This document shows, in pieces, positions 10,108 through 26,206 of a stretch of 26,566 bases of DNA (positions within the stretch are counted from its first letter, which is position 1; each line of letters starts with the position of its first letter). The stretch covers positions 1-26,566 of the forward strand of contig JAFGDR010000044.1 of the NCBI GenBank assembly GCA_016932035.1, in the 5' to 3' direction. Made by a program: the position numbers and the translations under genes. The notes beneath the pieces were generated by a model. That model made no database searches. It saw only the letters and a program-made list of their open reading frames with translations, and was not told where the DNA came from. The stretch is from Candidatus Cloacimonadota bacterium. GTDB taxonomy: Bacteria; Cloacimonadota; Cloacimonadia; JGIOTU-2.

Positions 10108-12603
10108 ATGAATGATAAACAAGAATTTATAAAAAGAGAAACTGTCGGATCGCCTTCGACTAAAAATGTCAGAACCATGCGTGACCGCTATCTTTCAGAA
10201 CCGATGTCGGTCGATGTCGAGTATATGAAATATTATACACAAGCTCATAGAGAATCTGACGGCATGAATTCTATCGAAAGACGCGCACACTGTCATGCTT
10301 TTGCAATGGAAAACCTCACTCCCATGATTCGCGATGGAGAACTATTTGCAGGTAATAAAACACGTTTTGTTCGCGGTGCAATCCCTTATGCAAATTATGC
10401 AACAAATTATATCCTGCGTACGCTGAACAAGGAAGAGCAGGAAGCCCAGGCAAAGCATACTGAGATCGGAACCGGTGGTGGCATTAAACATTCTCACAGG
10501 ATTGCCTCAGAGGGTAAGCATGAGGTTTTTGGGAAAAAGTTCATCATTTCTCATGAAGACAAGATAACCCTTCGCGAGATCGCTGAATACTGGTCAGGAA
10601 AATGTATGCAGGATGTTGCAGATCGTTTTTGGAAACCGGATTATGATAAAGCAAAATATATAGAGGACGGATGGAAGATCGGTCTGTATACTGCACCCCA
10701 CGATCCCGCACCCGAAGGTCGGTATGTGCTGGATTTCGAAACTGCTCTTGCTGAAGGATTTAACGCTATTATTAAAAAAGCAAATAAACTCCTTAAAGAG
10801 ACCGAGATCACGGATTATGAATCTGCTCAAAAAGCATACTTCTGGCGTGCAGGAATGAGAGCACTTAAAGGAACAATTACCTGGGCTCACAACTATGCGA
10901 AAGAAGCACGTCGTCTCGCGAAATCAGAAAAGAATGAACAACGAAAAAAAGAATTACTCGAAATAGCAGAAATGTGTGAATATGTACCAGCACATAGTCC
11001 CCGTACTTTCAAAGAAGCGATGCAGGCGTACTGGTTGATCTATCTTGCGGGACATATAGAAGGTGCGCACCTCGGGTATTCGCCAGGACGATTCGACAGA
11101 TACATGTATCCTTACTATAAAAGAGATATAGAAAAGGGATTAACCACAGATGAAGAAGTGCTCGAACTCCTCGAAGCCCTCCGCGTTAAAATGACTGAGA
11201 TCGAATATATGGCATCCTTCTCGTGGGAAGGACTCGGTTCAGGTAATCTTTACCAGAATATGATACTCGGCGGACTGGATGAAGAGGGGCATCGTTGTGA
11301 TAACGAACTCTCCATCCTCGTGCTTCAATCAGCAATTAATTGCCAGACCACACAGCCGACACTTTCCATCTGGTACGATCCATCACTTTCCGACAAATTT
11401 CTCCTGAAAGCTATCGAGTGTGTTAAAACAGGTGTGGGATTCCCAGCATTCTTCAATCTGAAGATATATATTCAGCATGAGCTTCAAAAGAGTAAACTTC
11501 CTGTTTCTCTAATTCGTAAATACGCTGCAATGGGAGGTTGTACAGAGCCCACCATGGAAGGTATGAGCTACGGTGTAGTACAAGCAGGTTTCATCAATCA
11601 TGCAAAACTCTTTGAACTTGCAATGCTCGGAGGGAAAGACACACAGACAGACATCACGATTGAAAAATCAGATGTCCCACAGACATATAATGAATTAGTA
11701 ACTTCTTATAAATTCCATCTGAGAAATGCCATCAAGAACTGGCAGCGTTACTGGAACTACGTGATGGCGGCGCACCGTGATACCTGCAATCTTATCTATT
11801 CGGGAATGCTGGTTCGGGACTGTCTGAGTAGAGGAAAATCCCTCGACGATAAGGGCGCGATCGTAAATGGAAGCCCAACCACGCTGAGTTCCGGTATGGT
11901 CAATGTCGCAAACAGCCTTGCATCAGTAAAAAAGCTTGTTCGGGACGACAAAAAACTCTCTATGGATGAACTGAGAACGGTTCTTTCTGAAAATTGGGAA
12001 GGGAAGAAAACGCTTCATAAAGCTGCGGTGGATGCACCAAAATGGGGAAATAACGATGATTATGTCGATGTTATATATGAAGAGCTTTTTGATACGTATT
12101 GTGGTTATGTTTCCGAGCAGTTAAATTACCTTGGTGAACCCTACGATCCTTCCATGCTCGCGATCAGCACTCACGCACCTTTTGGGAGAGTATGCGGTGC
12201 TACTCCAGACGGAAGACATGCTGGAGAAACCCTTGCAGATGGAGTTACTTCACCATTTTATGGAACAGACACAAACGGTCCGCTTGCTGTGCTTCATTCC
12301 GCAGGTAAGATCGATCATACAAAGATCCGCGGTGGATTACACAATATGAAATTCCTTCCTTCCACACTCAAAGGTGTGCAGGGTTCGAGGAAACTACTCT
12401 CTTTGATAAAAACATATTTCGACACGCTTGGTTTCCAGCTTCAGTTCAATGTGGTGGACAGTAAGATGCTGCGTGATGCTCAGGAAAATCCGGAACAGTA
12501 CCGCGATCTTATCGTACGTGTGGCAGGCTTCAGTGCATTCTTTGTGGAGCTTGGAACGAGCATACAGAACGAGATCATCGCCAGAACAGAACAGAATTTC
12601 TAA
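10108..12603 (+). CDS. Glycyl radical enzyme, C-x-E dehydratase/lyase type, substrate unknown
   Basis: An 831-residue enzyme of the pyruvate formate-lyase superfamily. The glycyl-radical motif near the C-terminus is RVAGFSAFF (radical G807, 24 residues from the end). The thiyl-radical cysteine is C478 in AAMGGCTEP, followed two residues later by E480. C-x-E with a following proline is the arrangement of the dehydratases and C-N/C-S lyases (glycerol and propanediol dehydratase, choline lyase, isethionate lyase). Pyruvate formate-lyase has C-C instead, and succinate-adding enzymes lack the glutamate. The C-terminal tail EIIARTEQNF is also typical of the dehydratase side. Length fits. A CAGGAG box precedes the ATG. 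The activase follows one base after the stop. No bacterial microcompartment shell, aldehyde dehydrogenase or other pathway gene is nearby, so the substrate cannot be assigned. Confidence 0.93.
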   Translation: MNDKQEFIKRETVGSPSTKNVRTMRDRYLSEPMSVDVEYMKYYTQAHRESDGMNSIERRAHCHAFAMENLTPMIRDGELFAGNKTRFVRGAIPYANYATNYILRTLNKEEQEAQAKHTEIGTGGGIKHSHRIASEGKHEVFGKKFIISHEDKITLREIAEYWSGKCMQDVADRFWKPDYDKAKYIEDGWKIGLYTAPHDPAPEGRYVLDFETALAEGFNAIIKKANKLLKETEITDYESAQKAYFWRAGMRALKGTITWAHNYAKEARRLAKSEKNEQRKKELLEIAEMCEYVPAHSPRTFKEAMQAYWLIYLAGHIEGAHLGYSPGRFDRYMYPYYKRDIEKGLTTDEEVLELLEALRVKMTEIEYMASFSWEGLGSGNLYQNMILGGLDEEGHRCDNELSILVLQSAINCQTTQPTLSIWYDPSLSDKFLLKAIECVKTGVGFPAFFNLKIYIQHELQKSKLPVSLIRKYAAMGGCTEPTMEGMSYGVVQAGFINHAKLFELAMLGGKDTQTDITIEKSDVPQTYNELVTSYKFHLRNAIKNWQRYWNYVMAAHRDTCNLIYSGMLVRDCLSRGKSLDDKGAIVNGSPTTLSSGMVNVANSLASVKKLVRDDKKLSMDELRTVLSENWEGKKTLHKAAVDAPKWGNNDDYVDVIYEELFDTYCGYVSEQLNYLGEPYDPSMLAISTHAPFGRVCGATPDGRHAGETLADGVTSPFYGTDTNGPLAVLHSAGKIDHTKIRGGLHNMKFLPSTLKGVQGSRKLLSLIKTYFDTLGFQLQFNVVDSKMLRDAQENPEQYRDLIVRVAGFSAFFVELGTSIQNEIIARTEQNF

Positions 12604-12604
12604 G

Positions 12605-13537
12605 ATGCCGGACAGCAATCCTTCAGCATTCATCTTTGATATTGAAGATTTTGCCACTCAGGATGGTCCGGGTATTCGAACCGTTCTCTTCTTCAAGGGA
12701 TGCTCACTCCGATGCAGATGGTGTTCGAACCCGGAAAGCCAGAACAACTTCCCCGAAATCCTCTACAGTACCGAGTTATGCCAAAAATGCGGCACCTGTA
12801 TCGAAACCTGTCCTTACGATGCGGTTAGCTTCGATGATCATAACAACCTGATCTTTAAAAGAGAATTCTGCCTGGTCTGCAAAGATAAACCATGTGTTGA
12901 TGCTTGTAATTATAACGCTATTCGTATTGCAGGTAAACGGTGGAAGGTCGATGAGCTTTTTAATAAGGTGATCGTCAATGCCCAGTATTTTGCCAACTCC
13001 GGTGGAGGGATCACTCTTTCTGGCGGCGAACCGTTACTTCAACCGGAATTTGTGAAAGCATTCCTGAAGAAATGTACGGAACTTGGATTTTCTGTCGGCC
13101 TGGAGACCTGCGGATATTTCCAATGGGACAAGGTGAAGGAATTTATATCTGACTTTGACTTTATCTACTTTGATATCAAGTGCCTGAACGATGAACTCAG
13201 CAGAAAGTACACAGGAAAGAGTAATGCAAAAATTCTTGAGAACCTGGAGAAACTTGCAAAGTCAATCGATACTTCAAAGATGATTATCTCTGTCGCACTT
13301 ATTCCGGATATTACTGCAACCGAAGAAAATATTTCTGCCTTGATCCAATTATGCAACACTCTGGGCATCACATCGGTTCGTCTGCTTCCGTACCACACCT
13401 TAGGCAAGGGCAAATATGCCGAACTGGGCAGAGAATATCTGTTGAAGGATGGGTTGAAGATCACTGATGAGGAAGTGGGTAAAATCCAAAATAAAATTGT
13501 GCACGCAAATATTACGTGTATCATTGAGGGATTTTAA
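12605..13537 (+). CDS. Glycyl radical enzyme activase (radical SAM)
   Basis: A 310-residue activating enzyme that uses S-adenosylmethionine and a [4Fe-4S] cluster to place the glycyl radical on its partner. The radical SAM cluster motif is C33-x3-C37-x2-C40 (CSLRCRWC). The SAM-binding stretch is ITLSGGEP. Between them lie two ferredoxin-like cysteine sets: C59-x2-C62-x2-C65-x3-C69-P and C89-x2-C92-x4-C97-x3-C101. These mark the longer activases of dehydratase-type glycyl radical enzymes rather than the short pyruvate formate-lyase type. I place the start at ATG 12605, one base after the upstream stop (TAAG-ATG), because homology begins at once with FDIEDFATQDGPGIRTVLFFKGC. The open frame extends back to 12428, but only inside the upstream gene. 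There is no clear Shine-Dalgarno, so translation is probably coupled to the enzyme gene. Confidence 0.94.
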   Translation: MPDSNPSAFIFDIEDFATQDGPGIRTVLFFKGCSLRCRWCSNPESQNNFPEILYSTELCQKCGTCIETCPYDAVSFDDHNNLIFKREFCLVCKDKPCVDACNYNAIRIAGKRWKVDELFNKVIVNAQYFANSGGGITLSGGEPLLQPEFVKAFLKKCTELGFSVGLETCGYFQWDKVKEFISDFDFIYFDIKCLNDELSRKYTGKSNAKILENLEKLAKSIDTSKMIISVALIPDITATEENISALIQLCNTLGITSVRLLPYHTLGKGKYAELGREYLLKDGLKITDEEVGKIQNKIVHANITCIIEGF

Positions 13538-13621: not shown

Positions 13622-15763
13622 CTAAAACACATCAAAGGTATAGGAAACTTTTAGAAAATAGGTATCTTTTTTTCTACTATATGTTTTCATCTGGTTAACT
13701 TCAGTTTCATCATCCAATGAAGTAATTCCTGCATACACTGAGATATTTGCATAAGGATTATATACAAATAGTGGGTAAAAATTTAGTGTGGTTTCTACTT
13801 CATCTTCTGTGTATAATTTTGAATGACAATATTGCAATATACCGCGAATCCAGAATTGCTTATTGAACTGGTACTTTAAAGTCAGTTGGTGTACCTGCGC
13901 AGAAAAGATGTTATGTAACTCTTCATATTCTGAACTGATATCCAGATCGATCTTATCGGTGGGACGGATATTGAGAAATACTTCATATTTTCTGTATTGC
14001 TCGATACGAGGATCATCCGCATCAAACCACATATACTCACCAAATTCGAAATCGGTATCGATCACAAAGAGGTCAGAAGGATAGGTCTGGAATGAGATCC
14101 ACGGGGTGTACATGTGATTATCTTTTCCTGCGAAGTGAACCATCTGAAAATTGACACCTGTCCACACCTCGAACCTGCTTCTAAAAATACCTCCAGTATA
14201 GAATTTCAAGAAGTGCTCCTTGATGTAACTGAAATCCAGATCGTATTTGATATTGGCATCATAGCCAAACTCGAGTAATCGAACATACTGCTGGTCATCT
14301 TTGGCATTTTTGTGCCACTCTCCATGACTGAACATGTACTGCTTATTATTCTCAGGAATATAACCCAGATCAGCTTTGAAGTTCTTAGAAATCGCTTCGA
14401 TACCAAGATTTGCAAAGAAGTGCTCATCATCATACCACACCTCGCCCTGGTAGCCATACCCCTTGAACCAGTCTTTCTGCAGATTCTGATCCAGAGAACC
14501 GACAAGCTGGTACTGTCCTCTTAGGTTGCCGAACAATGTGAACCGACCATCGATATCTCCAACAATATTATAGAAATCTTTGAATTTCCTCATTGCAAGA
14601 GCACCACGCGTGTAGGTATTTCCACTTTTTGATTTATTCTCAAAGGAGGTAAACCCGAATAGTGCATTTCCTGTGCCGTCATATCCATTGATAAATCGCG
14701 CACCTTCTGTGTTTTCATCAACCGCGCCGAGTCCAAACATCCTATTCTTACCGAAAGCACCTGAGAATTTTGCACCGAAGATCGGGTCAACGATCTTTCT
14801 GGTATGATAGATCGTAATAGGCGTTCTGAACGGATTCGTACTCTCAATAAAGAAGGGTCGTTTTTCAGGATAATAGATCGGAAACCGCGTATTGACATCG
14901 ATCTCCATGGCATCAGCCTCGATGGTGCTGAAATCAGGATTTATCGTCATGGTCGCTGTCAGCCATGAATTTGGTTCATAGAAGATATTCAGTTCAGGTT
15001 CATATTTTCGAGAAATGTTGTGCGTTCCAGCTTTCTTGTTATGATCATCAGTATAACTCATCAAAAATGATGGGATCAGCTTCAAATTTTGATTGGTAGG
15101 AAGTTCATCAAAAATAAGAATGCCATAGTTATCATAGAAATTAGTTCCGTTTCTGTTTACCTGGGTGGCACTGATCTCTTCTTTACGCTCTTCTATGTGA
15201 CGTTTCATGAAGAAACCCCATTGCACATTCTTCCCGCTTTTATATTTGATATTCTTGAGCGGGATCTTCATCTCGATGGTGTAACCATCATCTGTTAGCG
15301 CTCCGAAGGAATCATAATGAATGTTTATCGAGGTGTCGATGTCATTGATCACGATACCATCTGCCTGCTCACCATAAGCATTTGATCCAAAGTAATATGC
15401 TTTTGCATTTGAGTAGAACGTATCGACAAACAAGAATATCCTGTCAGTGTAATATATCTTATCCCGAATGCAGTGGAACAATCGTATCTTTTCCGGATCA
15501 TCGTAAAAACAGTGCACTGCGCAGTAGAGATAGTCATCATCATATGCAAGATAGCCGACCGTTCTTTCCGATGGCTCAGAATTATCACCCGGAGAAATTT
15601 GATAGAATGTTTCAACAACCGCTGCACCATCCCATTCACCAGTATCGATCATGCCGTCAATTACAGGTGATGGATTCAGTTTTGGAACATGCAATGTTAA
15701 CTTCGCTTGAAGCCCAAGCGGTAACAATACGATTATAAGTAGTAAATAGATAACCTTTTTCAT
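13622..15763 (-). CDS. CBM9-like/DUF5916 outer-membrane beta-barrel protein
   Basis: A 713-residue exported protein. The signal peptide is MKKVIYLLLIIVLLPLGLQA. Residues about 25-215 resemble a carbohydrate-binding family 9-like sandwich (PVIDGMIDTGEWDGA, then LAYDDDYLYCAVHC). The following region is the DUF5916 type, recognisable from NPDFSTIEADAMEIDVNTRF and YYPEKRPFFIES. The rest is alternating polar/aromatic strands ending in a terminal aromatic strand (FLKVSYTFDVF), as in outer-membrane barrels. The function of the family is not established; a surface role in binding or passing a carbohydrate-like ligand is a guess. The RBS is strong (AAAGGGGAG), and the ATG overlaps the stop of the GNAT-fusion gene by four bases (ATGA), so the two are translationally coupled. 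It is the last gene of the minus-strand operon before the hairpin at 13566-13587. Confidence 0.85.
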   Translation of the reverse strand: MKKVIYLLLIIVLLPLGLQAKLTLHVPKLNPSPVIDGMIDTGEWDGAAVVETFYQISPGDNSEPSERTVGYLAYDDDYLYCAVHCFYDDPEKIRLFHCIRDKIYYTDRIFLFVDTFYSNAKAYYFGSNAYGEQADGIVINDIDTSINIHYDSFGALTDDGYTIEMKIPLKNIKYKSGKNVQWGFFMKRHIEERKEEISATQVNRNGTNFYDNYGILIFDELPTNQNLKLIPSFLMSYTDDHNKKAGTHNISRKYEPELNIFYEPNSWLTATMTINPDFSTIEADAMEIDVNTRFPIYYPEKRPFFIESTNPFRTPITIYHTRKIVDPIFGAKFSGAFGKNRMFGLGAVDENTEGARFINGYDGTGNALFGFTSFENKSKSGNTYTRGALAMRKFKDFYNIVGDIDGRFTLFGNLRGQYQLVGSLDQNLQKDWFKGYGYQGEVWYDDEHFFANLGIEAISKNFKADLGYIPENNKQYMFSHGEWHKNAKDDQQYVRLLEFGYDANIKYDLDFSYIKEHFLKFYTGGIFRSRFEVWTGVNFQMVHFAGKDNHMYTPWISFQTYPSDLFVIDTDFEFGEYMWFDADDPRIEQYRKYEVFLNIRPTDKIDLDISSEYEELHNIFSAQVHQLTLKYQFNKQFWIRGILQYCHSKLYTEDEVETTLNFYPLFVYNPYANISVYAGITSLDDETEVNQMKTYSRKKDTYFLKVSYTFDVF

Positions 15764-18700
15764 AGGCGCTCCCCTTTGTTATTACTGTGAGAAAAGGTTA
15801 TATTTCTCAAATCACGAATCTCATCCTGAGAAAGCAATTCTTTTGTCAAGATAAGAAATTTCGGTGTGAGAAATCTTCTCTGGTTGTTATCAATATTTAG
15901 ATAATCATACATCCAGAAGGAAGTAATGTCTTTATTTAATGAGATGTCATTATACTGAGCTTGGTCAGTCCATATCTGTATCATATGATCTCTCAAGGTA
16001 CTCCCGACTGCCCGGACTGTTTGTGGGTAAAGGTCAACCGCTTCTTTGCCGGAATAGTAATCGAACATCTCGTGTTTCGAATTATAAGATCTCACAAAAC
16101 AGTTCCCGATTTTCTCATCTGCATAGGCAAAATAACGAGATATAAACTGGATATTTCTGAGATACCTACCCGTCTCCTGAATTATCTCCGGAACGTAACA
16201 CAGAACCGGTACTTCGGGCAGCATCAGATAATACTGGTTCCATGACAATCCTTTAAACTTTTCAAATTCATTAACGGACACGCTAATTTTTATACCCTTC
16301 CATTCATTTCTGAAATTATCATTGAGTACAACATCTTCAATCGAATAGCCCTCTTTTATAATAGATCGCATCTGCATTTTGTGCGGATAGGAGTTGATCC
16401 CACCGATCCATGGATTCCACCAGGATTTCGGTCCGGGGGCAGGAAAATCAGAATCTATCCATTCCTGATCTTTATACACCAACGAATGAACCGTTGGTGC
16501 ATACTCCTCGGCTGCTTTAATCGAAATCAATTCGTTTGAGCAGGACCATATCTTGTGATCTTCCTCAACGCTTTTGAAGGTTTTTATCTCACCTTTGCCA
16601 GTTGGAAATACAACCCGTTTGATCACCTTATTTGGGGTTTTTCCTTGAATCTTAGCTTGAAGGATATCGTATTCAAGTGCATTATCAATGGTAAGCCAAA
16701 CCGGATGAGTTTCTTTTTTTGATGAATATTCAACCTCTGATGTTTCAAACGATCCATATTTTGCAGAATATTCAACCGGAATATTATAGGGTTTTTCACG
16801 ATATTCTGTTAGGTTTACATAGAATTGCTGATCGATAAAGGGGTTTCCATCATTTACAATAACTTCCAGATAATCAGTGAGATATTTCTGCTCTACTCTT
16901 TTGTCGAGGATGAATGCTCTGAATTCATTCCATTCTTTAAACGTACCAAGCATCAATCTGAACTTTTTCGTATCCTTGGATGAGCGAGAAGGAATGATAC
17001 CAAGATCGGAATCGAATAGAAGTTCTTCTGAAAAGGTCATTTTGAAATCATCTGGCCAGCTTAAACCCATTGTATCTGCAGTGCCATAGTTGAAGATCCA
17101 ATTTTCGTCATACTTTGCAGCTTCGTAAAGCTCTCCCCAGTTCTGCGTATCATGATCGATGTATATGAACTTTCCTTTATACGGGATCACGGTATTTTGA
17201 AACCGTACAAACATTGCATTACTCAAACAGATTTCCTGTGGTGTGTCGACTGCAGAAGCATTCTGAACAGTTGCCCACTTCTCAAGAATCCCATTTGAAT
17301 ATAGTGTGAAATGAAGAATCAAAGTAAGTGTTACTGGTTTCTCAACTTCATACAATAGATGCATTTGTGCAGCATTTTGTTTCATATTGAAATCGACCTT
17401 TGAAGCTTTTTTCTGGTGCAGCTCAGAGGTGTATGGCTTCCCTATCTTTGGAGGAAACATAAACTGCCATGTATGCGCACTTGAGGTTACATCAAAGAAG
17501 CTTACCTCATTGAAGAATTCAATTTGATCAACTTGGACCTGATATCTTCCATTGATAAGTGCGATATGCCGTTCATTCTTTCCGTAGCCTATTCCATTTG
17601 TGGTCTGGAAAATTTCATTGATTGAATCAGAATAAGAAAATGTATCACCATTCTGGAAGGACGCCTTAATAGTTATCTTTTCATGAAGAACACCTGCACG
17701 AAGGAGTCTCATCGGAACAGCAATTGTATTTTGTTCTTCAGATTCAAGTTCAATTTCTATATGATGGTTCTGCCATTGAATAAGGTCAGAATCATTTAGT
17801 TCCCATGAGAATAAAACCTTCTCGTTATAGTTATTCTTCATATTGAAGTGCAACAATTCATCATGATGAGTTGAATAGATCTTATTTTCCCCTACAACCT
17901 TGATCGTAAGAGGAAACTGGGGATCTATGCCGACTTTGAAATCTTGTGATTTACTATTGATGCTGATATCAGCACAAACAGCTGGATAGGTTCTCCATTT
18001 ACTCTGTTTCTCCTTTGGTTCATTCACATAAAAGGTTGCAATGAATATCTCCTCGTCGTGCACTCTCGATTCCCCGTGATAATCAAATACAATATTTCGA
18101 TCATCATAACCATTGATTTTTACGTCGAGTGGTTGTTCAGAAAAATTCCTTATCTTATACATTACTTCGTAAGACTTTCCGAACACTTGTTTCAGCTGAT
18201 CCGTTTCTGCAATGATCTCGAAATCTTTTGTACGTATTTTCTCTATTCCTCTGCTATGTCTGCAAAATTCAACTTCAAGCTCATTTTCATCATTTTTCCA
18301 GTGATATCGATAACACTCAAAGCCGTTATGCTTCTTTCCATCAGGTTCAATTGCGATCTTTCGTTGTGAATCTTCATACCAATCTAAATCAGCGATATAG
18401 TCTTTCAATAATTCACTTGTAAGTACAGTTGGAATAAAATTCATGCAGTGCGTACAGTCGTCTCTATCTACCCAGAAGAATCCAGTTTTTTTATAGAGAG
18501 GTACAGCTTTTGTATTTCCCGTCCATGTATATAGATCGACACGAGGATAGCCAAGCTCAATTGTTTTTTCCACCGCTTTCAGCACGAGCTTCTTTCCTAT
18601 CTTCTTTCCATGATATTCAGGAATCACATTGATCAGATCAATATACAATGCTCCTTCATCTTCTCGATATTCAGAAAGTTTGCAATAACCAATTACCTCT

Positions 18701-18888
18701 TCATCTATCATTGCCAGCCATAGTGCCAGACAATCCGATTGCGCTTCTTCTTGTCGAACAGACTCTTCAGAGATCGCAAGGTTATACCCACCCCAGCAAT
18801 CTCCGCTTTTGTTCCACATATCAGCTATTGCAACTGCGTATATTTCATTATATTCTATTATTTTTAAACTCTGCAATTTATCAATCAT
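15760..18888 (-). CDS. Large protein with N-terminal GNAT acetyltransferase domain
   Basis: A 1042-residue protein without signal peptide or membrane helices. Residues about 8-150 are a GNAT N-acetyltransferase fold: strand VIGYCKLSEYRE, beta-4 LYIDLINVIPEYHGKKIGKKL carrying the acetyl-CoA pyrophosphate loop (HGKKIGKKL at about 92-101), and the C-terminal GNTKAVPLYKKTGF. The remaining ~890 residues look like all-beta material. First come about two Ig-like sandwiches (roughly 200-430). Then follows a long segment that may be a galactose-mutarotase-like supersandwich as found in glycoside-hydrolase-associated proteins (FNMKQNAAQMHLLYEVE, WGELYEAAKYDENW, PAPGPKSWWNPWIGGINSYP). I do not recognise a named family for this part. 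GGAG lies five to six bases before the start. It is 23 bases downstream of the small basic protein and overlaps the DUF5916 gene by ATGA. It may acetylate an amino sugar or aminoglycoside, but no substrate can be read from the sequence. Confidence 0.8.
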   Translation of the reverse strand: MIDKLQSLKIIEYNEIYAVAIADMWNKSGDCWGGYNLAISEESVRQEEAQSDCLALWLAMIDEEVIGYCKLSEYREDEGALYIDLINVIPEYHGKKIGKKLVLKAVEKTIELGYPRVDLYTWTGNTKAVPLYKKTGFFWVDRDDCTHCMNFIPTVLTSELLKDYIADLDWYEDSQRKIAIEPDGKKHNGFECYRYHWKNDENELEVEFCRHSRGIEKIRTKDFEIIAETDQLKQVFGKSYEVMYKIRNFSEQPLDVKINGYDDRNIVFDYHGESRVHDEEIFIATFYVNEPKEKQSKWRTYPAVCADISINSKSQDFKVGIDPQFPLTIKVVGENKIYSTHHDELLHFNMKNNYNEKVLFSWELNDSDLIQWQNHHIEIELESEEQNTIAVPMRLLRAGVLHEKITIKASFQNGDTFSYSDSINEIFQTTNGIGYGKNERHIALINGRYQVQVDQIEFFNEVSFFDVTSSAHTWQFMFPPKIGKPYTSELHQKKASKVDFNMKQNAAQMHLLYEVEKPVTLTLILHFTLYSNGILEKWATVQNASAVDTPQEICLSNAMFVRFQNTVIPYKGKFIYIDHDTQNWGELYEAAKYDENWIFNYGTADTMGLSWPDDFKMTFSEELLFDSDLGIIPSRSSKDTKKFRLMLGTFKEWNEFRAFILDKRVEQKYLTDYLEVIVNDGNPFIDQQFYVNLTEYREKPYNIPVEYSAKYGSFETSEVEYSSKKETHPVWLTIDNALEYDILQAKIQGKTPNKVIKRVVFPTGKGEIKTFKSVEEDHKIWSCSNELISIKAAEEYAPTVHSLVYKDQEWIDSDFPAPGPKSWWNPWIGGINSYPHKMQMRSIIKEGYSIEDVVLNDNFRNEWKGIKISVSVNEFEKFKGLSWNQYYLMLPEVPVLCYVPEIIQETGRYLRNIQFISRYFAYADEKIGNCFVRSYNSKHEMFDYYSGKEAVDLYPQTVRAVGSTLRDHMIQIWTDQAQYNDISLNKDITSFWMYDYLNIDNNQRRFLTPKFLILTKELLSQDEIRDLRNITFSHSNNKGERL

Positions 18889-18911: not shown

Positions 18912-19049
18912 TTATCCTTTTTTGATATGTCCTTTCTTAAAGCTGGACACCTTATTCGATCCCTTTTTTGAAGATCGACCTTTCTTTGACTGTTTTAGAT
19001 TTTGCTTTACCTGCTTCTCTTTGAGGAAATCCTTCATCCGCTTATTCAT
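18912..19049 (-). CDS. Small lysine-rich basic protein
   Basis: A 45-residue protein of unknown function. The start at 19049 has an excellent AAAGGAGG box six bases upstream, which is the reason to believe it is a gene. The start codon overlaps the end of the ABC-F gene by eight bases (ATGAATAA) in another frame, so it is translationally coupled to it. About a third of the residues are lysine, with four KKG triplets toward the C-terminus and almost no hydrophobic residues. This suggests a disordered RNA- or ribosome-binding peptide. A coding frame this biased can also arise by chance. Alternatively it could be the detached tail of the ABC-F protein, since some ABC-F proteins carry a lysine-rich C-terminal extension. 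Confidence 0.6.
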   Translation of the reverse strand: MNKRMKDFLKEKQVKQNLKQSKKGRSSKKGSNKVSSFKKGHIKKG

Positions 19050-20661
19050 ACAGTACCTCCTTTCGAATGTAATCCATATCAATGATCCTGTCAGCGATCG
19101 TATCAATAAGGAATCTGTCGTGAGTGGCGAAGATTACAGTGCCAGTATATTCCTGCAGTGCCCTTTCCAGGGCTTCACGGGCTGCAATCTCCAGGTGGTT
19201 TGTGGGTTCATCGAGTACAAGCACATTAGATTCTGAAACGATCAGCTTTGCTAATGCCACTTTACTTCGCTCGCCGATGCTCAATGTCTTGATAGGTTGA
19301 TTGATCAGTTTTTCGGGAATATTCAAACATCCTAAAACCGTTCTCGCAAAGGTCTGAATGGTATTATCTCCTTTTATCACCTCTTGCAGTACAGAATTAG
19401 CAAAATTCAGATTTTCATAATCCTGGGAGTAGTACCCGATCTTCGCTTGCGGTGACCATGTAACCGTTCCATCGTATCCATTGATGTGGTTTGTAAGAAT
19501 TTTCAGCAACGTTGATTTTCCGCTTCCGTTATTACCTATGATTGCCAACCGTTCACCTGTATGTACATGCAATTCCAGATTATGAAATACTGTTTTTGAC
19601 GAGAATGTTTTGGTAACCTTGTTACACTGCAAAACAAATCTGCTCTTGACCTCTGAATTATCAAATTGAAAGTGCCGCTTCTTCTCGATGAATGGCTTTT
19701 CTGATTCTGCTTTCTCGATCTCACGCTGAGTTCGACGTTCAAGATTCTTTGCCTGCACCATTGCATTCTTTGCGAAATTCACCAGGTCTTCATAAACAGG
19801 CGCATATCCTTCCGTTCCTGTTTGGGGTTGGTGGGAAATTGCCCATTTTTTTCTTTTGTTTGCAGCTTCTTTCAGCTTTTTGATCTTCTTGTTCTGCTCT
19901 TCATAAATATGGATCTTGCGCTTCTGTTCGAGTTCTTTTTCCTCTTTATAAAAAGAATAATTTCCGGAATATTTCGTTATTCCTCCGCTGGTAAGTTCCA
20001 GGATAGTATTCACACAAGCATCAAGGATAAATCTGTCGTGGCTGATCAAAATATACGGTATATCCAGATCATGAAGGAATTTCTCAAGCCATCTCAGCGC
20101 TTGTATATCCAGATGATTTGTCGGTTCATCCAGTAAGAGCAGGTCTGGATCAGAGAGAAGAATCCTGCATAGTGCAAGACGAGTCTGTTCTCCGCCGCTC
20201 AAAGTTTTTACCTGACGAGATAGCATCTCATTATCAAAGCCGAATCTCGTAATGATCTTCTCCAGTTTTATCTCAAAGTCATAACCGTGGTGAGTCTCAA
20301 ATTCAGAGAATAACCGACTCACTTCATCAGGTGTTTTGTTATCAATATAATCTATCTTATATTTTATTTCACCTAACCGGGGAATACTATTCCACAGAAA
20401 TTGCATTCCGGAAGTTTTGTCCGGCAGATCGAGTTCCTGCGGAAGATATCCGATTGAGAGTTCCGACATATGATGCACAGAACCCTCAATCGGCTGTATG
20501 TTTTTTTGTATGATATCCAACAACGTTGATTTACCGCATCCGTTCTTACCTATCAATCCGATCCTGTCGTGTTCATGCACAGCGAAAGTCACATCCTTAA
20601 ATATGTAATCTGGTTGAGAATCATATCGAAAAGAAACATTATCGCATCTGCATATTTGCAT
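19042..20661 (-). CDS. ABC-F family ATPase (ribosome-associated)
   Basis: A 539-residue protein with two ABC ATPase domains and no membrane segment, the layout of ABC-F translation factors and antibiotic-resistance ribosome protection proteins. NBD1 has GLIGKNGCGKST, signature LSGGEQTRLAL and LLLDEPTNHLD. NBD2 has AIIGNNGSGKST, LSIGERSKVAL and LVLDEPTNHLE. The charged helical linker between them (about residues 240-320; the P-site tRNA interaction motif in this family) contains ELEQKRKIHIYEEQNKKIKK. Both catalytic glutamates are intact. I prefer ATG 20661 because AAAGGAGA sits just upstream; the alternative ATG 20676 would place that box inside the coding sequence. It follows the ABC exporter genes by 14 bases. 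Whether it is a housekeeping (Uup/YheS/EttA-like) or a drug-protection member cannot be told, but its partners favour the latter. Confidence 0.92.
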   Translation of the reverse strand: MQICRCDNVSFRYDSQPDYIFKDVTFAVHEHDRIGLIGKNGCGKSTLLDIIQKNIQPIEGSVHHMSELSIGYLPQELDLPDKTSGMQFLWNSIPRLGEIKYKIDYIDNKTPDEVSRLFSEFETHHGYDFEIKLEKIITRFGFDNEMLSRQVKTLSGGEQTRLALCRILLSDPDLLLLDEPTNHLDIQALRWLEKFLHDLDIPYILISHDRFILDACVNTILELTSGGITKYSGNYSFYKEEKELEQKRKIHIYEEQNKKIKKLKEAANKRKKWAISHQPQTGTEGYAPVYEDLVNFAKNAMVQAKNLERRTQREIEKAESEKPFIEKKRHFQFDNSEVKSRFVLQCNKVTKTFSSKTVFHNLELHVHTGERLAIIGNNGSGKSTLLKILTNHINGYDGTVTWSPQAKIGYYSQDYENLNFANSVLQEVIKGDNTIQTFARTVLGCLNIPEKLINQPIKTLSIGERSKVALAKLIVSESNVLVLDEPTNHLEIAAREALERALQEYTGTVIFATHDRFLIDTIADRIIDMDYIRKEVLYE

Positions 20662-20675
20662 AGAATCTCCTTTCA

Positions 20676-22502
20676 TTATGCAATGAGTAGTTCGGATTCG
20701 CGTTCTTCCACGAACTGGTTCGAATACAATCGGTAGTAATATCCTTTCTTCTTTATCAGTTCATAATGGGTACCCTGTTCGGTTATCTTTCCTTTTTGAA
20801 TGACCAGAATCCTGTCTGCATTTCTGATCGTGGAAAGACGGTGAGCTATAATGAAACTTGTTCGATCTTCCAGTACCTTATGGATTGCATCCTGGATTTT
20901 CTGCTCTGTTTCCGTATCAACTGAGGATGTTGCTTCATCGAGTACAAATATTTTTGGATCGGTGAGAATTGCACGTGCAAAAGAAATGAGCTGTTTTTCA
21001 CCTGTTGAAAGCAGGCTGCCGCTTTCACCAACTTCAGAATCATATCCATCTGTGAGATGAGTAATGAATTCATGAGCATTCACGAGTTTTGCGGCTCCGA
21101 TGATCTCATCCTCAGTAGCATCGAGTCTTCCGTATGCAATATTATCTCTGATCGACCCGCTGAAGAGATGTGGTGTTTGTAACACATATCCAAGATTCGA
21201 ATGCAACCAGAGAAGTGAACGTTCCTTGTAATCAACTCCATCGATCAATACCTCACCTTTCGTCGGCTCATAGAACCTGCATGCAAGATTCACGATCGTG
21301 CTTTTGCCTGAACCGGTTTCTCCAACCAACGCAATGGTCTCTCCGCTTTTCACTTTGAGATTGAAATCATCGAGTACATACTCTCCGTCTTTATAACCAA
21401 ATGAGACATCCTTGAACTCGATATTTCCTTCTATGCATGGCCAGTTCTCGCGTTTGCATTTAGTAATATCACCAAAGGTTTCGATAACTTCAGATGAATC
21501 TTGTATATCCGGTTTTTCATCGATCATCGAGAAAATACGTTCGGCAGATGCCTGTGCATTTTGCAGTTCAGCGAACACGCGTGACAGCTCCCGTAAGGGT
21601 TCAAAAAATTGAACAGTATAAGAAATGAATGCTACAAGGGTTCCGTATGAGATCGTTCCGAGAAGCACGCCATTTCCACCACGCCAGAGCACAAGGCCTG
21701 TTCCAATGCTTCCGAGTGTGAGCACCACTGGCAGATAGAGTGATGAGAATATCGCAGCTCGTACCGATGAGCGATTCATCTTCGTCGTGAGCTCCTGGAA
21801 TTCCAGAAGGTTTTCTTCTTCGCGAACAAGGGTCTTTGTCGTCTTTGCACCTGAAATACCTTCGCTGAAAGCTCCAGTAATCTGAGAATTTATCTTCCTG
21901 ACCTTTCTGTAGGCTTTGAGGATCTTCTTCTGGAAATAGAGACTTATCAACACAAGTACAGGAACAACAGTTAGTGTGATGAGCGCTAGTTTCCAATGCA
22001 TGAAAAGCATCACAAAAACGATGCCGATCATGAGGGAGATACCCCACACCATATCAACCAAACCCCATGAAATGAATTCACCCAACCGCGTGCTGTCCGA
22101 TGTCATTCGAGTCATTATCCAACCCACAGGAGTTTTATCATAATAATTGAATGACAACTCCTGCAAATGCTGAAAGCCCTTCCTGCGGATATCGTAGGAT
22201 ATACCCATCTCGATCTTGCCAGCAATCGCTATGAAGAAGTAGATGTTCAAGCTCTGCAACACGATAAATGCGAAATAGACAATGCCAAAACCGACGATCC
22301 CGTTTGTGTTCTGTGGAACAACAAAATGATCGATAGCATACTTGCTCATCAAGGGCAGAATGACATCCACTCCTGCGAGTGAGAGCATAAAAGCGGCAAG
22401 AACAATCATTCTTTTTTTATATGGTTTTATAAACTGATATAATTTCTTCCAAAGTGAGAAATCAAATCGTTTTGTATATTCTTTTTCTTTAAATACACTC
22501 AT
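20676..22502 (-). CDS. Heterodimeric ABC exporter, catalytically competent subunit (BmrD/YheH-like)
   Basis: A 608-residue half-transporter: six transmembrane helices in the first ~330 residues, then a nucleotide-binding domain. The Walker A is GETGSGKST (394-402) and Walker B is IFVLDEATSSVD with the catalytic E523 present. Its signature is degenerate, LLSTGEKQL, instead of LSGGQ. The partner encoded upstream has the opposite pattern (good LSGGQ, aspartate for the catalytic glutamate). Together they make one consensus and one degenerate ATP site, as in BmrC/BmrD (YheI/YheH) and TM287/288. Substrates of such pairs are usually hydrophobic drugs, and some are lipids. AGGATG precedes the start at proper distance. 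The gap from the partner is 36 bases, and 14 bases separate it from the ABC-F start. Confidence 0.93.
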   Translation of the reverse strand: MSVFKEKEYTKRFDFSLWKKLYQFIKPYKKRMIVLAAFMLSLAGVDVILPLMSKYAIDHFVVPQNTNGIVGFGIVYFAFIVLQSLNIYFFIAIAGKIEMGISYDIRRKGFQHLQELSFNYYDKTPVGWIMTRMTSDSTRLGEFISWGLVDMVWGISLMIGIVFVMLFMHWKLALITLTVVPVLVLISLYFQKKILKAYRKVRKINSQITGAFSEGISGAKTTKTLVREEENLLEFQELTTKMNRSSVRAAIFSSLYLPVVLTLGSIGTGLVLWRGGNGVLLGTISYGTLVAFISYTVQFFEPLRELSRVFAELQNAQASAERIFSMIDEKPDIQDSSEVIETFGDITKCKRENWPCIEGNIEFKDVSFGYKDGEYVLDDFNLKVKSGETIALVGETGSGKSTIVNLACRFYEPTKGEVLIDGVDYKERSLLWLHSNLGYVLQTPHLFSGSIRDNIAYGRLDATEDEIIGAAKLVNAHEFITHLTDGYDSEVGESGSLLSTGEKQLISFARAILTDPKIFVLDEATSSVDTETEQKIQDAIHKVLEDRTSFIIAHRLSTIRNADRILVIQKGKITEQGTHYELIKKKGYYYRLYSNQFVEERESELLIA

Positions 22503-22538: not shown

Positions 22539-24404
22539 TTATGCTGTTTCCAGAGATGTTTCTTCTTTTTCGATACCTATCTGCATAGTACCATTTTTCA
22601 TTTCAGATTCCAGCTCCTCTTCCAGTGAGTTCTGGATCATCCAAATACGTCTGTACAATCCGTCCTGTCCAAGCAGCTCTTCGTGTGAACCGATCTGAAC
22701 AAGTTCTCCATGCTCGAGCACGAGAATGATATCAGCTTCTGAAAGGGTATTCAGTCTATGCGATATGATGAATGTCGTTGCTTTCTGTGCCCGTTTATGA
22801 AGCTGGGCTCGTATCGCTGCATCTGTCTCTGTATCGACGGCGCTCAGGGAATCATCAAAGATAAGGATCGGCGTGTTCATGATCAGTGTGCGAGCCATTG
22901 CTACACGTTGTTTCTGACCACCGGACAATGTTACACCCCGTTCGCCAACTGCTGTTTCATACCCCTTTTGGAAATCCAATATAACATCGTGTACGGAAGC
23001 GATCTGTGCAGCTTCGAAGACATCATCCTCTTCGCAGTCACATCTGCTCATACCGATATTTTCTTTCAGTGTTCGTGAAAACAAGAACGGTTCCTGAAGT
23101 ACGATCCCGACATTTTTTCTGATCGCATGCTTGTCGAGGTCTTTTAATTCTTTGCCATCGATTTTTATTGAACCGCTTGTGTAGTCGTACAATCGCGGGA
23201 GAAGGTGAACAAGCGATGATTTACCTGATCCTGTAGGACCAAGAAGTGCAACGGTCTGTCCCTGTTCTACTGAGAATGAGATGTTCTTCAATACAGGATT
23301 ACCCGGCTCGTACTCGAAACACACATTATTGAATTCGATCTTTCCTTGAACTTGGAGTTTCTGATCCTCTTCAAATTCTTCAATAGGTTCATCGAGAATC
23401 TCGTGAATACGACCAACTGAAACCATTGTCTTTCCCATATCGGTGAGTACTCGTCCCATCTGCCTGATAGGCCAGAGCATCATTCCAACAAATGTTGAGA
23501 AGGCGAGAAGTGTGCCCAGTGTTATCACTCCGGTCGCAGCCCAGTATGTACCAAGAATAAGCACAGCTGCAATCTGGATGAGGGAAAAGAAGTCAGAGAT
23601 CGACCAGTAACACGCAAGAAGCCAGATAAGTCTGTATGTAAGATCGCGATATTCGGTATTTTTCTCATCGAATTTATCGATCTCAAATGCCTGCCGTGCA
23701 AACGCACGAACCACTCGGACACCACTCAGGTTTTCCTGCAGTACTGTTGACATCCTACCTTCAGACTCATCCGATAGCTGGAATGCTTTCTTCACTTTCA
23801 TAAAGAAAACCACTGCAAATCCAAAGATGAAAGGCACGAGTGCCATAGAAACAAGCGTCATCGGAACACTCATTGGAATCATGAAAGAGAGTGCGAAGGC
23901 AATCATGAACAACGCACGACCAACTTCAACGAGTTGTATCGCAAGAAACCGTCGAATGGTCTCCACATCTGATGTACATCGCTGTATGAGATCACCTGTC
24001 TTAGCTTTCACATGATAATCATAGGGTAAAAGCTGAAGATGATCATACACACGATCTCTGACTCCTTGTGCAATGGACTCCGATGCCACAGCAGACCACT
24101 TTCCTTTAAAATAGAGAAACACACCTCGAACCAGCGTGATGCCGATAAGTATCGCACTACATATCCAGAGCTTTGAAACAAGACCGCTGCGTCCTCCAAA
24201 GAACGAGTACGCTCCAGAAAATAAAGGCTTCAGCCAACCTTGTGCTTCAAGCGCTTTTTCCCCTATGATCGAGTCGACGGTGATGCGCAACACCATGGGC
24301 CAGAGGAATGACAGAAACGTTGCCACGCCAATTGCTGTAATTGAGATGATATAAAGAGCTCTATTGCCCTTCATAAATTGCCATAAATAGTATAATTTAT
24401 TCAT
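22539..24404 (-). CDS. Heterodimeric ABC exporter, degenerate-site subunit (BmrC/YheI-like)
   Basis: A 621-residue half-transporter with six membrane helices and a C-terminal ATPase domain. Walker A is GPTGSGKSS (from residue 389) and the signature is the canonical TLSGGQKQR. The Walker B region reads ILIFDDSLSAVD, with aspartate (D518) where the catalytic glutamate should be. This loss is typical of one half of heterodimeric exporters. I choose ATG 24404, which has AAGCAGGT about five bases upstream; ATG 24422 in the same frame adds six residues and has no Shine-Dalgarno. It is the first large gene of the minus-strand operon and lies 87 bases behind a Rho-independent terminator, so its transcription needs read-through or a closer promoter. 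The C-terminus has an acidic tail of about 35 residues after the ATPase domain. Confidence 0.92.
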   Translation of the reverse strand: MNKLYYLWQFMKGNRALYIISITAIGVATFLSFLWPMVLRITVDSIIGEKALEAQGWLKPLFSGAYSFFGGRSGLVSKLWICSAILIGITLVRGVFLYFKGKWSAVASESIAQGVRDRVYDHLQLLPYDYHVKAKTGDLIQRCTSDVETIRRFLAIQLVEVGRALFMIAFALSFMIPMSVPMTLVSMALVPFIFGFAVVFFMKVKKAFQLSDESEGRMSTVLQENLSGVRVVRAFARQAFEIDKFDEKNTEYRDLTYRLIWLLACYWSISDFFSLIQIAAVLILGTYWAATGVITLGTLLAFSTFVGMMLWPIRQMGRVLTDMGKTMVSVGRIHEILDEPIEEFEEDQKLQVQGKIEFNNVCFEYEPGNPVLKNISFSVEQGQTVALLGPTGSGKSSLVHLLPRLYDYTSGSIKIDGKELKDLDKHAIRKNVGIVLQEPFLFSRTLKENIGMSRCDCEEDDVFEAAQIASVHDVILDFQKGYETAVGERGVTLSGGQKQRVAMARTLIMNTPILIFDDSLSAVDTETDAAIRAQLHKRAQKATTFIISHRLNTLSEADIILVLEHGELVQIGSHEELLGQDGLYRRIWMIQNSLEEELESEMKNGTMQIGIEKEETSLETA

Positions 24405-24491
24405 AAAGACCTGCTTGCGCATTATTGATTAATATATTTTTTGCTTTCGAGATAGTTCCGCGGATCTTGTTTTTGTTGGTATAAACGAAAA

Positions 24492-24519
24492 AAGCCACGG
24501 ATTTGCTCGTCCGTGGCTT
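24492..24519 (-). terminator. Rho-independent terminator in the leader of the ABC operon (attenuator)
   Basis: On the minus strand AAGCCACGGA (24519-24510) pairs over ten positions with TCCGTGGCTT (24501-24492) around an eight-base loop. A run of T follows at once (CTTTTTTCGTTT). The T run is only on this side, so it stops minus-strand transcription before the ABC genes begin. No large minus-strand gene ends here; only the 35-codon leader ORF does. This points to attenuation rather than simple gene separation. Confidence 0.85.
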
Positions 24520-24538
24520 ACATTTTTAAAATGTTATA

Positions 24539-24646
24539 TTATATGAACCTCGGACGGGCGGTTTGGGAAACGACTGAAAAGCACACTATTTGATTTTTAG
24601 ACAGACCGGTTGTGTCATTTGGCATAAGTCCGATCAAACTGATCAT
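24539..24646 (-). CDS. Leader peptide of the ABC exporter/ABC-F operon (putative)
   Basis: A 35-codon ORF (ATG 24646, TAA 24541-24539) with a strong GGAGG box at 24659-24655, eight bases before the start. It begins MISLIGLMPNDTTG and ends VVSQTARPRFI. The stop lies 20 bases before the terminator hairpin. Its position between a likely promoter region and a terminator, ahead of a heterodimeric ABC exporter, is the layout of the bmrB leader peptide of bmrCD in Bacillus subtilis; I see no sequence similarity that I can claim. Codons 31-33 (CGT CCG AGG) form the segment that can pair with the terminator's 5' arm. It is too short to be certain from composition alone. Confidence 0.65.
   Translation of the reverse strand: MISLIGLMPNDTTGLSKNQIVCFSVVSQTARPRFI
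24546..24556 (-). promoter_or_regulatory. Putative antiterminator strand inside the leader ORF
   Basis: The minus-strand segment CGTCCGAGGTT (24556-24546) is complementary to the terminator 5' arm and the start of its loop (AGCCACGGACG, 24518 down to 24508 on the minus strand). There are ten pairs including one G-U, with a single A-A mismatch. The inner part GTCCGA (24555-24550) is also perfectly complementary to TCGGAC (24633-24628) in leader codons 5-7. Three mutually exclusive pairings follow, as in classical 1:2:3:4 attenuators. The pairing was found by eye and no folding energy was computed. Confidence 0.55.
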
Positions 24647-24763
24647 GCTATTAACCTCCATCCGAATTATTTTTTTATTTGAACCAAAACTGGCAAACGG
24701 ATGATGAGAGTGTCAAGAAAATATAAAAAATGCTGTGAGTTACCAAATAATTTTTAAGCAATC

Positions 24764-24829: not shown

Positions 24830-26206
24830 ATGAAAAGAATATTCACTTTTAGTTTTTGGAATATGTCATTCATTCTTTTGTTCCTCAGCTCTTCACTCGC
24901 TTTTGCAGAAATCCCTAACAAAGCCCTCATCGGTTACTGGCATAACTGGCAATATCCAAATCCCACGCCGCTTCTACTGGATGAAATCCCATTAGCATAC
25001 GATGTGATCGATGTTGCCTTTGCCACGCCCGATGTTCCGCTCGGAACGAATATGCAGTTTACGCCTGACCCTGGTATGTATCCCGATCCTCAGGGTTTTA
25101 TCGATGATGTCCTCTATCTTCAATCGCTTGGAAAAGCAGTGCTCATATCGATTGGCGGTGCAACAGCCCCTATCCATTTTGATAACAGTACTGATGTGCT
25201 GGAATTTATTTCATCGATGTCATCCATAATAGACACGTATGGTTTTGACGGTATGGATATCGACCTCGAAGGAGGTTCTCTTTTCCTTGATGCAGGAGAT
25301 AATGATTATCGTTATCCGACAACGCCCAATATTGTATTTCTTATTGAAGCGGTACAGGGATTGCTCGATCTTTATTCCGATGATTTTATACTTACAATGG
25401 CACCCGAGACTGCGTATGTTCAGGGTGCTTACTTCACTTATGCCGGTGTATACGGTTGGTACTTGCCGCTTTTGCATGCTGTGCGAGATGTTCTCTCAAT
25501 GATATATGTGCAGCACTACAATACCGGATCAATGTACGGTTCTGACGGAAATATCTACTATCCACCGACTGCTGATTTTCATGTTGCGATTGCGGATATG
25601 CTGCTGGGTGGTTTTATCGTTGATTTCTATGGACAGCATATTCCTTTTGATCCCCTCCTTCCAGAGCAAGTTGCTATTGGTTTGCCTGCCTGCCCGGATG
25701 CTTCAAGCAGCGGATATACGTCACCGGATGTTGTGCATGAAGCGCTGAATTATATTGTTCTAGGAGAATCCTTTGGAGGACTATATCAGCTCACCAATCC
25801 CGATGGTTATCCGAATTTCCGAGGTCTGATGACCTGGTCTATCAACTGGGATGTGTATTCATCCTGTTCGTTCTCCGATGCGCATAGAGCCTATCTGGAC
25901 AGTCTTGTGCCTTATGCTACCGATGGAGTTTTTCAAGAAGAACCATTCTCATTTACACTTTCGCCCAATCCGGTGCGTGATAATATCTCAATCAATTTCA
26001 CACTAGCAAACATGGATAAGGTGGATATCTCAGTGTATAATTGTAAGGGACAATTAGTCAAATCTCATACAGAGAATATCCCTGATCCGGGAGAGCACTC
26101 GATCATTATTCCTGCAAAAGACCTTTCGAATGGAATTTATTTCCTGAAAGTCCAAACTGATCACCATCAAAAATTCTCAAAACTTATTGTTGCGAAACAA
26201 AAATAA
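24830..26206 (+). CDS. Secreted GH18 chitinase-like glycosidase with T9SS-type C-terminal tail
   Basis: A 458-residue exported enzyme. The signal peptide ends near SSSLAFA (about residue 26). The GH18 barrel follows: KALIGYWHNWQ at strand 1, AVLISIGGA (the SxGG strand), and the catalytic motif D140-G-M-D143-I-D145-L-E147, with E147 the general acid. MIYVQHYNT comes later, and LMTWSINWD at the last strand carries the substrate-stacking tryptophan. These are the features of bacterial chitinases that act by substrate-assisted catalysis on N-acetylglucosamine polymers. Residues about 375-458 form a separate Ig-like tail: FTLSPNPVRDNISINF, VDISVYNCKGQLV, AKDLSNGIYFLKVQ, FSKLIVAKQ. This matches type IX secretion sorting domains of the FCB bacteria, so the enzyme is probably released to or anchored at the surface. 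It has its own promoter and is divergent from the ABC operon leader. Confidence 0.92.
   Translation: MKRIFTFSFWNMSFILLFLSSSLAFAEIPNKALIGYWHNWQYPNPTPLLLDEIPLAYDVIDVAFATPDVPLGTNMQFTPDPGMYPDPQGFIDDVLYLQSLGKAVLISIGGATAPIHFDNSTDVLEFISSMSSIIDTYGFDGMDIDLEGGSLFLDAGDNDYRYPTTPNIVFLIEAVQGLLDLYSDDFILTMAPETAYVQGAYFTYAGVYGWYLPLLHAVRDVLSMIYVQHYNTGSMYGSDGNIYYPPTADFHVAIADMLLGGFIVDFYGQHIPFDPLLPEQVAIGLPACPDASSSGYTSPDVVHEALNYIVLGESFGGLYQLTNPDGYPNFRGLMTWSINWDVYSSCSFSDAHRAYLDSLVPYATDGVFQEEPFSFTLSPNPVRDNISINFTLANMDKVDISVYNCKGQLVKSHTENIPDPGEHSIIIPAKDLSNGIYFLKVQTDHHQKFSKLIVAKQK

Follow-up and report, generated by a model that had tools for sequence, protein, structure and literature searches.

Described leader attenuators and the Cloacimonadota operon

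In the trp-type attenuators of enterobacteria, mutually exclusive 1:2, 2:3 and 3:4 pairings are read by ribosome position, and the signal is a shortage of charged tRNA at control codons. Drugs are the inducers of bmrB-bmrCD in Bacillus subtilis, where translation of the leader is needed and lincomycin, erythromycin and chloramphenicol induce; the terminator lies within the 53-residue bmrB ORF, and all three alternative structures fall within bmrB nucleotides 60–162 (PMC4191407). In vmlR of the same species, stalling on an upstream ORF (uORF) prevents formation of an anti-antiterminator, so that the antiterminator forms and the antibiotic-resistance ABC-F (ARE ABC-F) is expressed; this uORF is a tripeptide whose Shine-Dalgarno (SD) sequence is single-stranded ahead of SL-1 (PMC9226507). 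The toiL uORF of Escherichia coli toiL-topAI responds to ribosome-targeting antibiotics of several classes, with stalls at different positions, and controls a downstream RBS and, indirectly, Rho termination rather than an intrinsic terminator (PMC12121999).

The DNA analysed here is a contig of a Cloacimonadota genome (G000:C44; 26,566 nucleotides, referred to as a whole as the window). The operon of interest and its divergent neighbour comprise:

22539–24404, minus strand: ABC exporter half 1 (Pfam ABC_membrane/ABC_tran)
20676–22502, minus strand: ABC exporter half 2 (TmrAB/TM287-288/BmrD-like)
19042–20676, minus strand: ABC-F ribosomal protection-like protein, with a one-base frame overlap with half 2
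15760–18888, minus strand: 1042-aa protein with an N-terminal GNAT domain (Pfam), 153 nt downstream of the ABC-F gene
24830–26206, plus strand: divergently oriented gene for a family 18 glycosyl hydrolase that carries a type IX secretion sorting domain

On comparison with same-genus relatives we moved the start of half 1 from 24422 to 24404, which is probably the true start since no relative has an ATG at 24422 and all keep AGCAGG..ATG at 24404. The two halves adjoin and would form a heterodimeric drug ABC exporter of the bmrBCD type. The nearest bacterial PDB chains to half 2 are TmrA and TM_0288; the window exporter also matches B. subtilis BmrD (YheH), but the TmrAB- and TM287/288-type chains score higher. 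The ABC-F scores 475 bits against the NCBIfam model for ribosomal protection-like ABC-F proteins (NF000355, cut-off 380), and its best PDB sequence matches include ExpZ/VmlR and other ARE ABC-Fs besides EttA. Gene spacing suggests that this ARE ABC-F is co-transcribed with the exporter and so, as in vmlR, would sit within the regulated transcript; the GNAT-domain gene, on the same strand as the ABC-F gene, is a probable further member of the operon. The gene content fits a response to ribosome-targeting drugs. Elsewhere in the window (10108–13537) a putative glycyl-radical-enzyme-like protein is followed, by eye, by an overlapping radical SAM activase-like ORF.

At one same-genus locus, L026 (3013–4137; contig also G111:C119, L085), an in-frame deletion fuses the exporter halves into a hybrid of ~375 aa, joining half 1 residues 1–109 to half 2 from about residue 337. 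The leader switch and the ABC-F are intact at this locus despite the collapsed exporter, which represents either natural exporter loss with the regulated ABC-F retained or a misassembly.

Leader, terminator and two competing pairings

Upstream of half 1, the leader region contains the following elements, all on the minus strand:

24711–24716: TTGACA, 70 nt ahead of the leader start codon and without a clear TATAAT -10; probably the -35 box of a promoter for the leader
24677–24693: near-invariant block CCAGTTTTGGTTCAAAT between the -35 box and the leader, from sequence comparison
24653–24666: segment 1, the leader ribosome-binding site TTCGGATGGAGGTT, which pairs with segment 2 (anti-antiterminator, or RBS lock)
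24655–24659: GGAGG SD of the leader ORF, inside segment 1 and 8 nt before the ATG
24539–24646: leader ORF of 35 codons plus stop, from ATG 24646 to TAA 24541–24539, peptide MISLIGLMPNDTTGLSKNQIVCFSVVSQTARPRFI
24548–24563: segment 2, late leader codons AACCGCCCGTCCGAGG, which pairs with segment 1 or segment 3
24508–24519: segment 3, terminator 5' arm and first loop bases AAGCCACGGACG, antiterminator partner of segment 2
24519–24510 and 24501–24492: terminator stem of ten pairs with loop 24509–24502, from terminator scan and fold
24488–24501: segment 4, terminator 3' arm and T run to 24488

The 35-codon ORF, GGAGG box and ten-pair terminator with T run reported in an earlier sequence-only reading of this DNA are all present. 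The terminator begins 19 nt past the leader stop codon, and 87 nt separate it from the exporter/ABC-F operon. The region thus holds what defines ribosome-mediated transcription attenuation, namely a translatable leader with an RBS, an intrinsic terminator and a mutually exclusive antiterminator that overlaps the leader, and in our model the state of translation would alter read-through. That reading had proposed a search for conservation in related genomes, and the ORF, terminator and complementary segments are kept among same-genus relatives: GGAGG is invariant and the terminator kept in six of six loci, and the leader frame is open in all six, both indels being multiples of three.

Complementarity between late leader codons and the terminator 5' arm had been proposed and was borne out. 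The codons CGTCCGAGG (24556–24548) match CCACGGACG (24516–24508) with one A-A mismatch, and the best duplex of segments 2 and 3 has an energy of -17.7 kcal/mol (p about 0.01, dinucleotide shuffles of the late leader). Segment 2 also pairs with the leader RBS, through TTCGGATGG (24666–24658) with CCGTCCGAG (24557–24549) and GGTT (24656–24653) with AACC (24563–24560), at -19.0 kcal/mol (p about 0.01, dinucleotide shuffles). The joint p of the two pairings is below 1/2000 (2000 dinucleotide shuffles of the late leader). The RBS-lock helix and the terminator occur together in the minimum-energy fold of the leader, which as a whole folds only mildly better than shuffles (z = -1.55). The lock is kept in all five same-genus relatives, with a G-U to G-C change in L004 and L026 (TCGGATGG to TCGGACGG).

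The sequence-only reading had assigned the protecting role to codons 5–7. The 6-bp match that these offer (TCGGAC/GTCCGA) exists, but it overlaps 9 nt that are inserted in the window alone and missing from all five same-genus relatives, and we rejected codons 5–7 as protector. On sequence comparison the conserved protector is the leader's own RBS, whose pairing is the stronger of the two. The overall attenuator interpretation therefore stands as regards attenuation and the antiterminator pairing, with the protector reassigned.

As a control, 1.016 Mb of the same genome, sampled by stretches, was scanned for candidate leaders, defined as any RBS-preceded ORF of 8–45 codons ending within 70 nt of a terminator. 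Of the 179 terminator-like sites in the sample, 25 had such a leader, and the window site ranked first among these (summed energy -37.9 kcal/mol; next -27.2). Thresholds of -12 kcal/mol or better for both duplexes and an overlap of at least 6 nt were passed by two of the 179 terminators, one being the window site, and by 13 of 64 regions upstream of exporter homologues whose ORFs were not hand-picked; since the scan and its thresholds were written after homologues had been seen, these figures are a contrast and not a formal test.

A promoter downstream of 24492 had been named as evidence that would count against the switch, and the promoter signals point upstream instead. Every one of the 36 Cloacimonadota leaders examined (kinds A, B and C, below) has a TTGAC 55–83 nt ahead of its ATG, and inspection found no TTGAC-type box between the window terminator and the exporter, so transcription probably starts upstream of the leader. 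A pattern scan of the window leader region found no strong sigma-70 pair. The block CCAGTTTTGGTTCAAAT, identical in five of six same-genus loci and with a single substitution in L026, is possibly a promoter -7 region or the transcript start. A second block, TTAATCAAT, is invariant in the window (24424–24432) and the same-genus loci, just upstream of the exporter RBS, and might be a second promoter or a standby site.

If TTAATCAAT belonged to a second promoter, the hairpin could be a plain terminator with chance complementarity and the exporter could be transcribed from within 24491–24405. We consider this highly improbable: the upstream gene (24830–26206) lies on the other strand, which leaves no transcript from upstream on this strand for a terminator to end, a TTGAC box precedes the leader, and the pairings both beat shuffles and recur in distant homologues.

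Leader regions of exporter homologues

An exporter homologue at E 1e-150 or better was found in 48 of 124 Cloacimonadota genomes, and three kinds of leader region (A, B and C) precede these genes. Kind A, that of the window, was found at 11 Cloacimonadota loci: six from one genus, which are hence not independent, and L048, L051, L083, L054 and L057 from other genera or families. All 11 leaders have 31–35 codons. Despite peptides that are unrelated between genera, complementarity of the late codons to the terminator arm is kept, in most cases together with complementarity to the leader RBS. Double complementarity is present in L051 (RBS helix -23.6 kcal/mol), L083 (GTCCGTGG with CCGCGGAC) and L057 (TGTGTCCGC with GCGGACACA). 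Two loci have one pairing only: in L054 the RBS GGACGGA pairs with TCCGTCC and the best late-leader match to the terminator arm lies outside the RBS-pairing segment, and in L048 the duplex test found no RBS helix, this locus passing the scan through a different ORF than the hand-listed one. A second terminator-like hairpin and T run follow the first in L048, L051, L054, L057 and L004; the window retains only CCGCGGA of it.

A DNA search of the phylum with the window leader matched the genus and three further genomes, the latter weakly and partially. Kind A leaders also occur in Clostridia/Bacillota (L087, the same site as L015; L088; L016; L086) and in Izimaplasma (L024), with a joint p of 0.0005 or less for the four Bacillota loci and 0.016 for L024. 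Close exporter homologues were present in 4 of 299 genomes of a phylum-wide sample around the Clostridia genome. At the Spirochaete loci L012 and L013, inspection by eye suggested a leader whose late codons are complementary to its own RBS. The sequence-only reading knew of no described example in this kind of organism; in the papers searched we likewise found no report of attenuators in Cloacimonadota, but the architecture itself is widespread and not confined to this phylum. The proposed parallel to bmrCD and ABC-F genes is, like attenuation and the antiterminator pairing, supported by this conservation, by the recurrence of both pairings, with other sequences, in unrelated leaders, and by the controls.

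These comparisons also bear on whether the ORF is incidental to a switch that works without ribosomes, such as a riboswitch, a protein-binding RNA or a thermosensor. The RNA segments are indeed conserved more than the peptide. At the gathering threshold, however, Rfam matched only a tRNA in the window and no family in 19 homologue loci; the RBS, start, frame and length are kept among leaders, and the switch segment ends 0–30 nt from the leader stop codon, as control by the ribosome requires. We give a ribosome-independent switch very little credence.

Kind B comprises 20 loci (L005, L007, L008, L014, L022, L025, L034–L038, L044, L046, L047, L049, L050, L052, L053, L055 and L068) with leaders of 10–15 codons, many ending PQG(S/T)S. 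After the leader come a segment 3–8 nt from its stop codon, a first hairpin (GGTGGGAT...ATCCCACC) with TTTTTG behind it, and a second, strong terminator; the segment pairs with the 5' arm of the first hairpin. Duplex tests replaced column-based pair counting for this kind, whose post-stop segment misaligns between subgroups. The stop-proximal pairing beat shuffles in all 10 subgroup representatives tested (p 0.0005 to 0.06), and its segment varies (ACCAATCC, ACTGATC, ACTGGTCCC, ACCGGTT); pairing of the first-hairpin 3' arm with the second-terminator 5' arm reached p < 0.05 in only 4 of 10. Since a ribosome at the stop codon would cover the first segment, we hypothesize that kind B may share the logic of kind A, a finished leader meaning OFF.

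Kind C comprises five loci (L072, L073, L074, L075 and L078), with leaders of 26–29 codons starting MR (MRQ.., MRK.., MRH..). In each of the five, the 135–186 nt behind the leader are richer in C than in G and end near a shared GACCCGTT. The scan of the 450 nt upstream yielded a single, unplaced terminator in L072 and none in the other four. Rho-dependent control of kind C is possible. Among more distant exporter homologues, in place of a leader ORF, L071, L077, L080, L081 and L082 have a tRNA-like gene and a GC-rich hairpin of small size immediately ahead of the exporter.

Ribosome position as the predicted signal

Taken together, our data make it very probable that the locus is a ribosome-mediated transcription attenuator that senses the progress of ribosomes along a short leader ORF. 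Segment 2 would pair alternatively with the leader RBS (segment 1) or with the terminator 5' arm (segment 3). Were a ribosome to stall on the first codons, it would cover the RBS, allowing 2:3 to form, so that no terminator folds and the exporter/ABC-F operon is ON. At the stop codon the ribosome would instead cover segment 2, the terminator would fold and the operon would be OFF. With the ribosome gone or never loaded, segment 2 would lock the RBS, favouring termination and limiting further translation of the leader. From the ABC-F and exporter content, together with bmrCD (PMC4191407) and vmlR (PMC9226507), we infer that the natural signal would be translation-inhibiting drugs, countered by the ABC-F and the exporter.

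In our model a ribosome hides 15 nt on the upstream side of its P-site codon and 12 nt on the downstream side. For RNA that still lacks the terminator 3' arm, placing the P site on codons 1–3 gave a predicted antiterminator probability of 1.0 and an RBS-lock probability of 0, whereas from codon 28 onwards the ribosome blocked the antiterminator; it is on these outcomes that early stalling is read as ON and a finished leader as OFF. Stalls at codons 4–26 changed the balance little relative to no ribosome. The comparison of alternative folds suggested with the sequence-only reading favoured the OFF state for full-length RNA without a ribosome (lock plus terminator -50.5 vs antiterminator -42.6 kcal/mol). 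Before the 3' arm emerges, however, the equilibrium probabilities were 0.79 for the antiterminator and 0.20 for the RBS lock, and OFF without translation would therefore depend on persistence of an earlier-formed lock. In the model this is the weakest step of the mechanism.

Some drug-sensing leaders, such as that of msrD, encode an arrest peptide (PMC10314930), and a drug-specific peptide of the ErmCL/MsrDL type, stalling in the tunnel with a particular drug while the RNA switch reads the stall, could explain why the codons ATA-GTG-TGC-TTT (IVCF) are invariant within the genus. Yet the third positions of these codons are kept too, and the predicted fold pairs the block with the start region, so constraint on the RNA can explain its invariance. 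Within the genus, leader codon positions 1, 2 and 3 vary equally (13, 14 and 14 of 33) and pN/pS is 0.44–1.03, close to neutral for the peptide; across genera and phyla the peptides are unrelated while the RNA logic persists. We regard an arrest peptide as unlikely and do not favour it. Because the peptide is near neutral while frame, RBS, length and pairing segments persist, the signal is likely to be ribosome position.

With bmrB-bmrCD the locus shares a short translated leader, a terminator/anti-terminator/anti-anti-terminator set and a downstream heterodimeric multidrug ABC exporter. It differs from the published description of bmrB in that the terminator lies past the stop codon and the protector, the leader RBS, before the ORF, and in that the operon also has an ABC-F. 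Like vmlR, it would place an ARE ABC-F under uORF-stall control through an antiterminator and anti-antiterminator, but its leader is much longer (35 codons, with segment 2 at the far end), and the SD region itself supplies one arm of the predicted anti-antiterminator. Like toiL-topAI, it would use a uORF to sense ribosome-targeting drugs, but here an intrinsic terminator is the predicted target of control. Mutually exclusive pairings read by ribosome position are common to trp-type attenuators and this locus, which has no codon run and for which drug sensing is a prediction. The mechanism class is thus already known from bmrCD and vmlR, while the RBS lock, the phylum and the breadth are new here.

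A broader reading, on which we are evenly divided, is that of a self-locking attenuator in which the leader RBS serves as anti-antiterminator arm and a single RNA segment distinguishes a ribosome at the start from one at the end and from none at all. Without conserved sequence, such logic would have been kept or reinvented before the same exporter family in several phyla, and other Cloacimonadota would have swapped to a second, cascade-type attenuator. A leader whose late codons can pair with its RBS as well as with the terminator arm would then provide a sequence-independent signature for genome searches. Since the peptides differ while the RNA logic stays, sensing of ribosome position would be separable from sensing by an arrest peptide. 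If the proposed mechanism is true, it would extend antibiotic-type leader attenuation to the uncultured phylum Cloacimonadota, and suggest an old link between ribosome stalling and this exporter family, widespread beyond the model Firmicutes.
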